Below the pieces are notes generated by a model. The model saw nothing but the letters and a program-made list of their open reading frames with translations, made no database searches and was not told the origin of the DNA. DNA of 45,988 nt from Chloroflexota bacterium. Lineage in GTDB: Bacteria > Chloroflexota > Dehalococcoidia > UBA2247 > RBG-13-53-26. Positions 4,171-33,988 of the stretch are shown here, piece by piece. The stretch's first letter is position 1, and each line of letters begins with the position of its first letter. Made by a program: the position numbers and the translations under genes. The DNA lies in assembly GCA_016876035.1 (NCBI GenBank), contig VGOE01000012.1:1-45988 (forward strand), read 5' to 3'.

Positions 4171-4211
4171 GAAAAAACCAGAAGTTAGGAAATACTGAAG
4201 CCTTCTGGTTT
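4171..4211 (-). terminator. Intrinsic terminator of the TPP riboswitch
   Basis: On the minus strand AACCAGAAG (4202-4210) pairs perfectly with CTTCTGGTT (4176-4184) and is followed by a run of Us. It lies directly downstream of the TPP aptamer and 140 bases before thi4. This is the layout of a transcription-attenuating expression platform. Confidence 0.85.
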
Positions 4212-4217
4212 CAACTC

Positions 4218-4307
4218 TTTCGACTTCCCTACGCTCGAATTACCGAGATCAGGTTCAAAGGGTCGTCCTTCCTTGAAGGGAAGGACTCTCAGCCGTCCAG
4301 CTCCCCT
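4218..4307 (-). promoter_or_regulatory. TPP (thi-box) riboswitch aptamer
   Basis: The minus strand shows the conserved thi-box blocks in order: GGGGAGCTGGACGGCTGAGAG near 4307, a variable GC hairpin, then ACCCTTTGAACCTGATC, a short arm, and CGTAGGGAAG near 4222. A U-tailed terminator follows. Thiamine diphosphate binding should favour the terminator and switch off thi4-thiN. Confidence 0.95.
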
Positions 4308-4325
4308 AGATATATTCAGTTTCTC

Positions 4326-30294: not shown

Positions 30295-31521
30295 ATGAAG
30301 CCAGGGATGTCCAGATGCACGCCTATTCCCGATGGAACGGTCACCTCACCAGAGGGTTTCCTGGCCGGTGCTCATTATTGTGGGATCAAGACCCGGGGAA
30401 ATGGTGCTTTAGATCTGGCTATCCTTTACTCAGAGGTTCCGTGCGTCGCAGCGGGCGTCTTTACCACCAACAAGGTCAAAGCGGCTCCCGTCCTCCTGTC
30501 ACAAGACAGTTTAACCGCCGGCATAGCACAGGCAGTAGTAGTCAATTCAGGCTGTGCCAATGCTTGCACCGGACGCCAGGGACTGGCTGACTGCGCTGAG
30601 ATGGCTGACCTGGCTGCCAGGAAGCTGGGAATACCGCCGCAGGCAGTGCTGGTGGCCAGCACCGGCGTGATCGGTGTGCCTTTAGCTATGGAACGCATCC
30701 GCAGTGGAATTGAGGCGATCGCTCTCTCCCGCGAAGGAGGACACCAACTAGCGAAGGCAATCATGACCACTGATACTTTTCCCAAAGAAATAGCTGTCAG
30801 CGTTAGAATTGGCGGAAAGGACGTCACCATTGGGGGTGTGGCCAAGGGGGCGGGGATGATTCACCCCGACATGGCTACTCTGCTATCATTTATTACCGCT
30901 AACGTCGCTTTGGATGCTGCGCTGGCACGAGCCGCCTTGCGACAGGCTGTGGATGATTCGTTCAATATGATTTCGGTTGACGGTGATACCAGCACCAATG
31001 ACACGGTATTGTTGCTCGCCAGCGGGCTGGCCGGCAATGAGCCGCTCCGGGCTGGTACACCCGAGGCGGCATTGTTTCAGGATGCACTTGGCCAGGTCTG
31101 CCTCTATCTGGCCAAGTGCATCGCCCGTGATGGAGAGGGGGCGACCAAGCTTTTCGAAGTCAAGGTTGAAGGGGCTGTTACTCTGAGGGAGGCTCGCCTC
31201 GCTGCCCGTACCATAACCAGCTCTCCCCTGGTAAAGGCCGCACTGCACGGGAGTGATCCCAACTGGGGCCGGATCATGGCTGCCCTGGGTCGAAGTGGGG
31301 CTGAGATAGACCCGTCGCAGGTTGAGCTGTACCTAAAGGAGTTGTGTCTTCTGAGAGCGGGGTGCCCCGTGCCTTTTGACCAGGCGGAGGCGAGGAAGAT
31401 GCTCAGCGAGGCTGAGGTTCAGATCAGGGTGTGCCTCAACTTGGGCAGAGAATCGGCGACTGCTTGGGGTTGCGACCTATCAGAGGAGTATGTGACCATT
31501 AACAGCGCCTACGTCACCTAA
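30295..31521 (+). CDS. argJ: Bifunctional glutamate N-acetyltransferase / ornithine acetyltransferase
   Basis: ArgJ recycles the acetyl group from N-acetylornithine to glutamate in arginine synthesis. The 408-residue proenzyme has the self-cleavage site GMIHPDMATLLSF, with nucleophile Thr195 after Ala194. It also has NSGCANACTG and the C-terminal GSDPNWGRIMAALGRSGAE segment. The strong TATAAT box just upstream implies a nearly leaderless mRNA; if so, translation may begin at the first ATG or at the ATG at 30307 (Met5). It ends with a four-base convergent overlap with the DUF1284 gene. argB lies 2.6 kb further on, beyond a minus-strand block. Confidence 0.95.
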   Translation: MKPGMSRCTPIPDGTVTSPEGFLAGAHYCGIKTRGNGALDLAILYSEVPCVAAGVFTTNKVKAAPVLLSQDSLTAGIAQAVVVNSGCANACTGRQGLADCAEMADLAARKLGIPPQAVLVASTGVIGVPLAMERIRSGIEAIALSREGGHQLAKAIMTTDTFPKEIAVSVRIGGKDVTIGGVAKGAGMIHPDMATLLSFITANVALDAALARAALRQAVDDSFNMISVDGDTSTNDTVLLLASGLAGNEPLRAGTPEAALFQDALGQVCLYLAKCIARDGEGATKLFEVKVEGAVTLREARLAARTITSSPLVKAALHGSDPNWGRIMAALGRSGAEIDPSQVELYLKELCLLRAGCPVPFDQAEARKMLSEAEVQIRVCLNLGRESATAWGCDLSEEYVTINSAYVT

Positions 31522-31916
31522 AGGCCGCAATAGGCTCTCCACCGGCACATGCGGCACAGGCGATAAGGCCATTTGTCAGCGATCACAGACCGCCATTGGC
31601 TGACCTTCAAAGTCTCTCCGTAGGACTTCTCCAAATCACCGAGTAGGAAATCATCTACTCTCCTGACCATCTCCTCCTTGATGTGCGGGCTATCGCATTG
31701 GCCTTCAATACAGGAAGGACAGGCCCGGCAGACATCGTCCACACCCTCGATGACGGTCACAGCTAGATCAAGGTCAGACATTAGTTTTTGCTTTACTTCC
31801 GTTAAAACCTGAAGGAATTTGCGGTTCAGATTATCGCTGTCAAAGCTAAGAAATGGCATGCAGCATATATGGTGGGGACGTAGTTTCAACAGCTTGTCGT
31901 GATGTTTATCAGGCAT
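31518..31916 (-). CDS. DUF1284-family Cys-rich protein
   Basis: The 132-residue protein starts with LRPHHICCM, has VDDVCRACPSC and CDSPH in the middle and CRMCRWRAYC at the end. This is the pattern of DUF1284 proteins, which likely bind an iron-sulfur cluster or other metal and have no known function. It lies 83 bases after the toroid-protein gene on the same strand. It may therefore be read from the fluoride-riboswitch promoter. Its stop overlaps the end of argJ on the other strand by four bases. Confidence 0.75.
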   Translation of the reverse strand: MPDKHHDKLLKLRPHHICCMPFLSFDSDNLNRKFLQVLTEVKQKLMSDLDLAVTVIEGVDDVCRACPSCIEGQCDSPHIKEEMVRRVDDFLLGDLEKSYGETLKVSQWRSVIADKWPYRLCRMCRWRAYCGL

Positions 31917-31999: not shown

Positions 32000-32890
32000 T
32001 TATCCTCTGATATTAATATCATATAGGATGGCAACTGCATAAAAGGTATATTCCAGAGTGGGAATTCCCATGATTGTGGTACGTGCAAAGCCACCGTTCG
32101 CCCTTTGGCACGCCATAACAAACCTCGTAATCCTTTCAGGGACGTTCGACTTCTCACCCGCGTTGGCCAGGCCCTTAATGAGCCAAAACAGGTTTTCAAT
32201 GAAGTCTACCTGCCCCTTGGCGAAGTTCGCCTGCCACCTGTTCTCTCTATCCCTCAGGTAATCTCTGGTGCTGGTAAGCCTGGGAATCTCTATCCCCAAT
32301 ACCTTGTGGATTTCTGTAGCATAGAAAGTTGAGGCCAAAGTCGAGTGTCCTTCTCTGCCGTATCCTCCATCCTGGTTTAGCAGACTGGAAACAAAAGAGA
32401 TGACTTTCTGTTCATCAAGATCAGTGCCAAGAGTCTTCAGGGTTCTTACGGCGCGATAGGTATCTTCCAGTTCCGAAGGCACTTCTACGTCTATGTTATC
32501 GACAGCGCCAAAGCCCCCTGCCTTATTCTGAAGATACCTTACCCTCTGAGCGTGATCCTTCAGGCTAGGGACCATTTTCTGACCAAGGTCATTCATGACC
32601 TCAACGGCAGCAAAGATCTCACCCAGACTATACAGTGAACTATTCTTCGCCCGATGGAGAAAGTAATCCACGATAGCCGAAGTATGCCGGGGCTCTTCAC
32701 CAATTATGTGAAGGCTCTTGACAGCGAAGTAGGTGTCCCTGGCACTTGAAGGCGGCACGCGGGCAAAGAAGAAGCCACCGTCTTCCAATTGGCAACTCTT
32801 TATGTACTCTGCTATCTGCTGGCGCAGAGGATAGGTAAGATAACGCACATTGTATCCACCGCGCTGTATATTGTTCCGTTCACGATCCAT
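32000..32890 (-). CDS. Prenyltransferase/squalene-cyclase-type alpha-toroid repeat protein
   Basis: The protein has about 296 residues built of repeats with the Q-x-x-DGGF signature seen in protein prenyltransferase beta subunits and terpene cyclases: QLEDGGFFFA, NKAGGFGAVD, NQDGGYGREG and QRANGGFART. No signal peptide or membrane segment is seen, and the DxDD cyclase motif is not obvious, so catalysis is uncertain. An upstream in-frame ATG at 32926 lies inside the terminator loop of the riboswitch, so I place the start at ATG 32890; a GTG at 32848 after GGTGG is also plausible. Its leader carries a fluoride-type riboswitch, which is unusual for this family. Confidence 0.75.
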   Translation of the reverse strand: MDRERNNIQRGGYNVRYLTYPLRQQIAEYIKSCQLEDGGFFFARVPPSSARDTYFAVKSLHIIGEEPRHTSAIVDYFLHRAKNSSLYSLGEIFAAVEVMNDLGQKMVPSLKDHAQRVRYLQNKAGGFGAVDNIDVEVPSELEDTYRAVRTLKTLGTDLDEQKVISFVSSLLNQDGGYGREGHSTLASTFYATEIHKVLGIEIPRLTSTRDYLRDRENRWQANFAKGQVDFIENLFWLIKGLANAGEKSNVPERITRFVMACQRANGGFARTTIMGIPTLEYTFYAVAILYDINIRG

Positions 32891-32895
32891 ATAAA

Positions 32896-32939
32896 TTAAT
32901 AAGCTTCTACTCCAATATTTCCACATTTGGGTAGAAGCT
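32896..32939 (-). terminator. Riboswitch-linked terminator hairpin
   Basis: On the minus strand AGCTTCTAC (32931-32939) pairs with GTAGAAGCT (32902-32910). The stem extends with TTGG/CCAA around an 11-base loop and is followed by U-rich TTATTAATTT. The 5' arm is the same stretch that closes the upstream aptamer, so ligand binding and terminator formation should be mutually exclusive. Confidence 0.7.
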
Positions 32940-33007
32940 ATCAGCCCTGCTAAGTTCAGGGCATTTCGACTATGCGTTTAAGCCAGCCAAGCGAGCCTCA
33001 TCGCTAT
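32930..33007 (-). promoter_or_regulatory. Fluoride (crcB-type) riboswitch A
   Basis: The minus strand reads AGCGATGAGGCTCGCT (P1 region, 32990-33005), an insertion, then GAAATGCCCTG, a loop, CAGGGCTGATAGCTTCTACC. The blocks GCGATGAGG-x-xCGC, GGGCTGAT and CTTCTACC are those of the fluoride aptamer. GAGGCT can pair with AGCTTC to form the ligand-dependent helix. The conserved AAAC could be TAAAC in the insertion or GAAAT before the second stem; this is the one imperfect point. The terminator downstream reuses the 3' arm, as in known Bacillus examples. Confidence 0.78.
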
Positions 33008-33151
33008 AGACGGTTACTCGCTCAGGTCACTGATTAATATTAAGGCTAACAAGCAGCCGCACTTCTGTCGGTTGAACCCTTACCACCAAATAAGCGTCCC
33101 CAATACCTCAACCAGAAACACGGAGCAAATGCCTGAACCCGTCTCGTTATA

Positions 33152-33784
33152 TTATCCTCCGGGGGGTATGAGAGGTCCCGGTTCTTTTGCAGGAACGCCA
33201 GATTCCTCAATCATCCACTCATAACCCAAATCAGCACGCCATTGCAGCATCTCCTCCACAAAGGTCTCATAGTCTTTCTGAAGGGTTTCGTAAAACCTGG
33301 CACTTTCCAAGGCAATGGCACCGAAGCTGGCCGCCGCAGTGGCAAAATCAATATCAGCATCAGTAAAGTGACGGGGCTCAGAAGTGTAAACTCGCATAAC
33401 ACCGACCACCTCTTCTCTCAGTTTGACCGCTACACTCAGAATGGAAGCTATACCCTCCTGCTTGACCTGCTTTCGATACTGAACCCTATCATCTGTTGTA
33501 GCATCGAAGACAGCCACCGGTTTGCCCTGAAGCGTTTCGGCCATGCTTTTGTCGGCCGATACCGGACCTTTTCTGACGTACCAATCACTTAACCCGTAGG
33601 ACGCGGTACGAAGCAGCACCTTTTTGTCTGGCGTGAGCAGCAGCAGTGAACAGCCTTTCGCGTCCATAGCCTTTGCCACGTCCTCAACAATAGATTGAAC
33701 AATTCGCTGAGGGGAACGAGCTGAGTTCAATGTCGCTGCCAGCTTGTATAGGCTCTGATAATAGGTCTTTTCGCCTTGCTTCAT
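33152..33784 (-). CDS. GAF-domain protein
   Basis: The 210-residue protein has one GAF domain (about residues 10-165): CSLLLLTPDKKVLLRTASYGL, the VFDATTDDRVQY segment and SILSVAVKLREEVVGVMRVYT are typical strands. A helical segment and a Pro-rich tail (GPLIPPGG) follow. No kinase, GGDEF or DNA-binding domain is attached, so it is a free-standing sensor or redox protein. The start is the ATG after AAAGGAGG; an in-frame GTG 25 codons upstream has no ribosome site. A fluoride-type riboswitch lies in its 5' leader, about 120 bases upstream. Confidence 0.8.
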   Translation of the reverse strand: MKQGEKTYYQSLYKLAATLNSARSPQRIVQSIVEDVAKAMDAKGCSLLLLTPDKKVLLRTASYGLSDWYVRKGPVSADKSMAETLQGKPVAVFDATTDDRVQYRKQVKQEGIASILSVAVKLREEVVGVMRVYTSEPRHFTDADIDFATAAASFGAIALESARFYETLQKDYETFVEEMLQWRADLGYEWMIEESGVPAKEPGPLIPPGG

Positions 33785-33902
33785 TGGGCACCTCCTTTGC
33801 TCTTGTTGAATTGGAAGGGCTACCATAATCATTCGGTTTTTTCGTTCGCCCTTAACCACTGTTGAAAAGAGGCAAAGAAGAAAGAGACCATCACCTCCCT
33901 TT

Positions 33903-33966
33903 GTAGAAGCTATTAGCTCCTTAAGAGCGGTTTAGGCAACTATCGCCTGGGCGAGCTTCATCGCCC
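33903..33966 (-). promoter_or_regulatory. Fluoride (crcB-type) riboswitch B
   Basis: The minus strand reads GGGCGATGAAGCTCGCCC (33949-33966), a small extra hairpin (GGCGATAGTTGCC), then TAAACCGCTCTTAAGGAGC and TAATAGCTTCTAC. This follows the fluoride aptamer closely: P1 with GCGATGA-x-GC, the AAAC-x-GC strand, the GCTC/GAGC stem, CTAAT, and the pairing of GAAGCT with AGCTTC. GGGAGGTG follows immediately. No matching terminator is seen, so control may act on translation or on a 20-codon upstream frame (33829-33891). Confidence 0.85.
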
Positions 33967-33982
33967 ATTTACTTCTTCTAGA

Positions 33983-33988
33983 ATTATA
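33983..33988 (-). promoter_or_regulatory. -10 box ahead of riboswitch B
   Basis: A perfect TATAAT on the minus strand sits 17 bases before the aptamer, putting the transcript start about ten bases upstream of P1. The -35 is poor at standard spacing (a TTGATT lies 20 bases upstream). Confidence 0.55.

Follow-up and report, generated by a model that had tools for sequence, protein, structure and literature searches.

The window, a stretch of 45,988 nucleotides from a Chloroflexota bacterium, contains on its minus strand two matches to the fluoride riboswitch family RF01734 (RS1 and RS2), each located ahead of a gene. The order of features is RS1, a GAF-domain gene, RS2, a terminator-like hairpin, a gene for an alpha-alpha toroid protein and a DUF1284 gene (Table 1). 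The GAF gene is sensor-like, and its product scores above the Pfam cut-off for GAF domains. Elsewhere in the window, a TPP riboswitch was detected at 4209-4317 (-) with a score of 70.4 bits.

Table 1. Features of the locus in minus-strand order, with coordinates of the window
Feature	Position	Strand	Evidence
-10-like TATAAT just 5' of RS1	33983..33988	-	Sequence inspection; consensus match only
RS1, fluoride riboswitch aptamer (RF01734), ahead of GAF gene	33897..33974	-	45.8 bits, E 1.2e-9
GAF-domain gene, ~210 aa; ATG preceded by AAAGGAGGTGCCCA	33152..33784	-	PF13185 56.5 bits, PF01590 54.1 bits
RS2, fluoride riboswitch aptamer (RF01734), ahead of toroid gene	32925..33014	-	34.8 bits, E = 4.9e-6
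Terminator-like hairpin (expression platform of RS2); the pseudoknot 3' strand AGCTTCTAC serves as its 5' arm	32902..32939	-	Pairing and folding
Alpha-alpha toroid (prenyltransferase-fold) gene, <=296 aa; start uncertain, ATG 32890 or GTG 32848	32000..32890	-	PF00432 65.9 bits
DUF1284 gene, neighbour	31518..31916	-	Pfam match

The original prediction was of a single fluoride riboswitch ahead of the toroid gene, with three sequence elements in the order of the crcB-motif aptamer. These elements, GCGATGAGGCTCGC, GGGCTGAT and AGCTTCTAC, are all present in this order on the minus strand, and comparison with the covariance model confirmed RS2 as an RF01734 match over the full model (1-64), with a score of 34.8 bits that is barely above the curated Rfam cut-off of 34 bits. 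RS1, which was missed in the earlier reading, is a second and better full-model match in which P1, an extra P2 hairpin, P3 and the pseudoknot are intact. Position 39 of RS1 is an A in place of G, a substitution also found in the aptamer of another genome (G614) whose terminator is normal.

Forty aptamers of the class were aligned in register (Thermotoga petrophila numbering). Residues A6, U7, G8, U38, A40 and U48 were invariant (40 of 40) and U41 was present in 39 of 40, while all seven were kept in each of the 12 toroid- or GAF-linked aptamers, including RS1 and RS2. The A6-U38 and A40-U48 interactions are long-range pairs of the fluoride aptamer (PMC11586693, PMC8752731). All six pseudoknot pairs form in both RS1 and RS2, and over the 40 aptamers 234 of 240 pseudoknot cells were paired as compared to 214 +/- 2.8 when the 3' strands were shuffled among sequences, a level of pairing equalled in none of 10000 shuffles (19 distinct rows). 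Covariation was observed at 9-46 (A-U, G-C), 12-43 (C-G, U-A) and 13-42 (U-A, C-G, U-G). Position 42 is A rather than G in both RS1 and RS2, and since this position pairs and covaries with position 13 the substitution is a compensated change. RS1 and RS2 share with the described crcB motif a full-length Rfam match, P1, P3, the pseudoknot and the A40-U48 linchpin positions (PMC8752731, PMC11586693), and RS2 also has the overlapping terminator. Both differ from the motif in having a long P1-P3 linker with an extra P2-like hairpin, a feature of most toroid-linked copies, while RS1 differs further in A39 and in having no overlapping terminator; the toroid is absent from the regulated gene families listed in the literature searched. 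Within the class, the same aptamer type is located ahead of crcB and Na+/H+ antiporter genes. RS1 and RS2 are almost certainly genuine fluoride-class aptamers, and their intact determinants point to fluoride as the ligand.

A terminator had also been predicted for RS2, and the pairing was found as described: AGCTTCTAC (32939-32931) pairs with GTAGAAGCT (32910-32902) at nine of nine positions across a 20-nt loop. The T-run is degenerate (TATTAATTTATA) with five T among the next eight bases, the weakest tail of the ten toroid-linked switches, most relatives having TTTTT. When sequences downstream of the 40 aptamers were shuffled (8000 in all), 9/9 pairing combined with five T in eight bases never arose, and the RS2 leader has a predicted fold of -47.6 kcal/mol (z = -4.45). 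The expression platform of RS2 would compete with the aptamer through this overlapping hairpin, with its weak T-run, which suggests that the toroid gene may be controlled by termination. For RS1, no overlapping terminator was found and the best downstream pairing was 6/9, as compared to a canonical overlapping terminator (9/9) in its counterpart at a related locus (L031, see below). The predicted fold of the RS1 leader pairs the Shine-Dalgarno region of the GAF gene with an upstream U-rich stretch, an arrangement that is only suggestive; RS1 may act on translation or may have decayed. Between RS1 and the GAF gene, a short open frame (ATGGTCTCTTTC..., ~20 codons; 33897-33800 (-)) directly follows a strong GGGAGGTG sequence.

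A survey of riboswitch-gene pairings in related genomes, proposed alongside the original prediction, supported the association of switch and toroid. The toroid family was detected by profile search in nine of 393 genomes of the class and an RF01734 match (E <= 0.001) in 50; all nine toroid genomes were among these 50, with the switch upstream of the toroid gene on the same strand each time. A tenth locus (L031), found separately in a Chloroflexi MAG from a lake (VGNY01000021), also has an upstream switch, giving 10 of 10 loci, and repeats the order of the window (riboswitch, GAF, riboswitch, toroid) with GAF and toroid proteins 61 % and 55 % identical, respectively. A fully paired (9/9) hairpin overlaps the toroid-linked switch at every one of the ten loci, and five or more of the eight bases that follow it are T. 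The switch lies directly ahead of the toroid gene in the window and in six genomes (G040, G078, G540, G566, G614 and G641), while one ORF intervenes in G029 and two in G035, where the match is weak. In G040, cmscan gave 24.8 bits for the directly upstream copy; the class survey had picked up a neighbouring copy in divergent orientation. The hypergeometric value for co-presence alone was 4.5e-9, which overstates independence as the genomes are related. The toroid carriers belong to at least eight families with differing flanking genes, and their toroid proteins are 38-58 % identical to that of the window. A phylum-wide search for further toroids gave two of 400, and an order-wide search found no new toroids in the order of G566. 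The toroid gene of G029 (L032 4325-5154 (-)) contains one in-frame TAG. These observations make it highly likely that the toroid family is regulated by fluoride switches.

The two remaining genes of the locus are not consistently associated with the toroid. GAF was rejected as an obligatory toroid partner, the family being carried by 93 of 393 genomes of the class and adjoining a toroid gene at only three loci seen (G000, L031 and G566). In the GAF relative at L031 (4215-4850 (+)), a single stop codon interrupts the frame at a position that is Tyr in the other two, reflecting either a sequencing error or a real truncation. The DUF1284 gene behind the toroid gene had been correctly identified, as shown by its Pfam match, but its suggested link to the toroid was unsupported: no homologue was found at the other toroid loci searched and a promoter-like site is present in the gap between the two genes. 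DUF1284 was rejected as a partner on these grounds and its gene is probably outside the system.

Elsewhere in the class, switches precede genes for CrcB, CLC-type and cation/proton antiporter proteins, most of them named from sequence, and some of the switch-led genes are followed by UspA-like genes. Several such genes adjoin toroid loci. In G078 the toroid switch is divergent from an antiporter switch, the antiporter being confirmed by PF00999, and in G029 the toroid gene is followed by one for a PF00719 pyrophosphatase (38.1 bits, cut-off 23.5) that is probably truncated; the corresponding protein in G035 has only a sub-threshold hint of PF00719. Na+/H+ antiporters and pyrophosphatase are among the commonest fluoride-riboswitch genes (PMC11139923), and in Enterobacter cloacae resistance is due in part to the pyrophosphatase of one such operon (PMC5533749). 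The toroid loci are similar in switch and genomic logic to the riboswitch-controlled fluoride-resistance operons (crcB, CLC-F, Na+/H+ antiporter, pyrophosphatase and UspA; Enterobacter cloacae FRM, PMC5533749), and in other genomes the toroid occurs together with antiporter or pyrophosphatase genes, whereas the regulated genes of the window are GAF and toroid and its genome has no CrcB, CLC or PF00719 match. In this genome (2.53 Mb, 97.7 % complete) no third RF01734 match above the cut-off and no match to CrcB (PF02537), CLC (PF00654) or family I pyrophosphatase (PF00719) was detected; two PF00999 antiporters are located on other contigs, neither adjoining an above-cut-off switch. The missing CrcB means little alone because 30 of 41 relatives also have none.

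Several other genes were observed beside these switches. A fluoride-type switch with an overlapping terminator (L034 7944-8018 (-)), divergent from a toroid switch, is ahead of an apparent MoxR ATPase operon. A second divergent copy (L059 6495-6578 (-); RF01734, 41.1 bits) is followed by a 143-aa protein without a Pfam match. In three genomes (L075, L091 and L063), proteins with two C-x-x-C motifs (CPICR...), all of one family, are encoded beside antiporter genes that are under fluoride switches. MFS-like transporters, named by eye, were seen behind fluoride switches at two loci (L087 and L039), once directly and once after crcB. Two conserved small proteins of 108 aa and 162-181 aa are encoded directly 3' of the toroid in G078 and G614 (L049 and L058); the G078 pair, the only one scanned, gave no above-cut-off Pfam match. 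Small coiled-coil proteins adjoining toroids had no significant homology among them.

The identification of the toroid gene product as an alpha-toroid repeat protein was correct, the PF00432 score being 65.9 bits for a cut-off of 26.5. The AlphaFold model is an alpha-alpha toroid (pLDDT 90.4, pTM 0.90), and the closest solved structures in a Foldseek search were RabGGTase beta subunits (1dce_B, TM 0.74, 18 % identity). The toroid resembles protein prenyltransferase beta subunits in this predicted fold but differs from them in the aligned zinc ligands and in having no alpha subunit gene beside it. In a profile alignment the DxC zinc motif of RabGGTase (LPDVCYSWW) aligned with F/Y-x-E218 in the toroid family, in which E218 is invariant; the zinc ligands Asp and Cys are not kept, and the His region lay outside the alignment. 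Other invariant polar residues are D23, D38, E83, S125, E126, S169, R199, E202, R249, R256, T264 and E266. Similarity to squalene-hopene cyclase toroids was weaker, both in fold and in Pfam scores. The protein differs from these cyclases in its single toroid domain, in scores below the Pfam and NCBIfam cut-offs for class II terpene cyclases of the SHC type (PF13243, 17.8 bits, cut-off 26.1; TIGR01787, 24.9 bits, cut-off 322.7) and in the DxDD cyclase motif, which was not seen in the toroid alignment. The toroid is probably not a classical prenyltransferase, and its cavity may be used for something other than zinc-dependent prenyl transfer. A guess is that the protein binds a peptide or small molecule, or acts as an enzyme, by means of carboxylates placed in the cavity at the site that holds zinc in prenyltransferases.

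The original prediction offered two readings of the unusual pairing, a new fluoride-response protein or a diverged ligand specificity. Under the latter, the aptamers would be a variant class with another ligand and the toroid pathway would concern that ligand and not fluoride. Such a variant would fit the unusual regulated gene, the genome without a CrcB or CLC match, A42 in both switches and A39 in RS1. However, A42 is also found in crcB- and antiporter-linked aptamers, position 42 covaries with 13, all of the checked fluoride-site positions are conserved, and the toroid switch of G078 divergently adjoins an antiporter switch. A changed ligand is unlikely because every checked fluoride-binding nucleotide is kept in RS1 and RS2, and a diverged ligand was rejected, given the conserved core and the occurrence of the same aptamer type ahead of crcB and antiporter genes; a variant class is extremely improbable. 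The other reading is supported by a switch preceding the toroid at all ten loci, among known fluoride genes, and the toroid is very probably a new fluoride-response protein. A different concern is that the switches of the window may be partly decayed, such that expression of the genes here is largely constitutive or set at translation, while the family is fluoride-regulated elsewhere. The degenerate RS2 tail (TATTAATTTATA), the 6/9 downstream pairing of RS1 as compared to 9/9 in L031 and the pairing of the GAF Shine-Dalgarno region in the RS1 leader fold are all consistent with decay. The aptamer cores are intact, however, RS2 still has 9/9 pairing with five T in the next eight bases, and a full set of core positions is not expected to persist in a useless RNA. 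Decay is unlikely.

If the toroid were an active prenyltransferase or terpene cyclase, fluoride might signal only a lipid or prenylation change. Enzymatic activity would agree with the PF00432 match, with the Foldseek matches to RabGGTase beta and squalene-hopene cyclases and with the many invariant charged and aromatic residues, but F/Y-x-E218 opposite the RabGGTase DxC, the unseen DxDD motif and the lack of an adjoining alpha-subunit gene make this explanation improbable. The sporadic distribution of the toroid (nine of 393 genomes, in at least eight families with differing flanking genes) also raises the question of whether switch and toroid are a mobile cassette, travelling together and saying little about fluoride physiology. 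This is highly improbable, as the pairing has persisted in proteins only 38-58 % identical to that of the window and known fluoride genes adjoin several loci.

The locus is likely to be a fluoride response consisting of two riboswitches, a GAF gene and a toroid gene, acting by anti-termination and with the toroid aiding tolerance. When fluoride is absent, AGCUUCUAC, the 3' pseudoknot strand of RS2, would pair with GUAGAAGCU to give the terminator-like hairpin ahead of the toroid gene. In the presence of Mg2+ and fluoride, the RS2 aptamer would dock and, by means of the A40-U48 linchpin pair, keep this strand in the pseudoknot, allowing the polymerase to read into the toroid gene. The toroid protein would then be made and would help the cell to tolerate fluoride, not as an exporter. 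A role for the toroid in fluoride tolerance is fairly likely given the genomic neighbours, which provide an association only. Any biochemical mechanism is doubtful. One rather speculative mechanism is a new type of fluoride defence, in which a prenyltransferase fold has exchanged its zinc site for a carboxylate ring that accommodates a different metal or some phosphorylated ligand, and shields a fluoride-sensitive step by means other than export.

The RNA class is known, while the toroid as a fluoride-response effector appears to be unreported in the literature searched, in which nothing was found linking a fluoride riboswitch to a prenyltransferase or GAF domain (the gene list of Baker et al. 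2012 lies outside this literature). The fluoride defences known so far consist mostly of exporters, pH homeostasis and extra copies of enzymes that fluoride inhibits. A toroid family that always has a switch upstream in this sample, sometimes in genomes without a recognised exporter, would indicate a further, unexplained defence and would place a bacterial branch of the prenyltransferase fold, otherwise uncharacterised, in a biological context.
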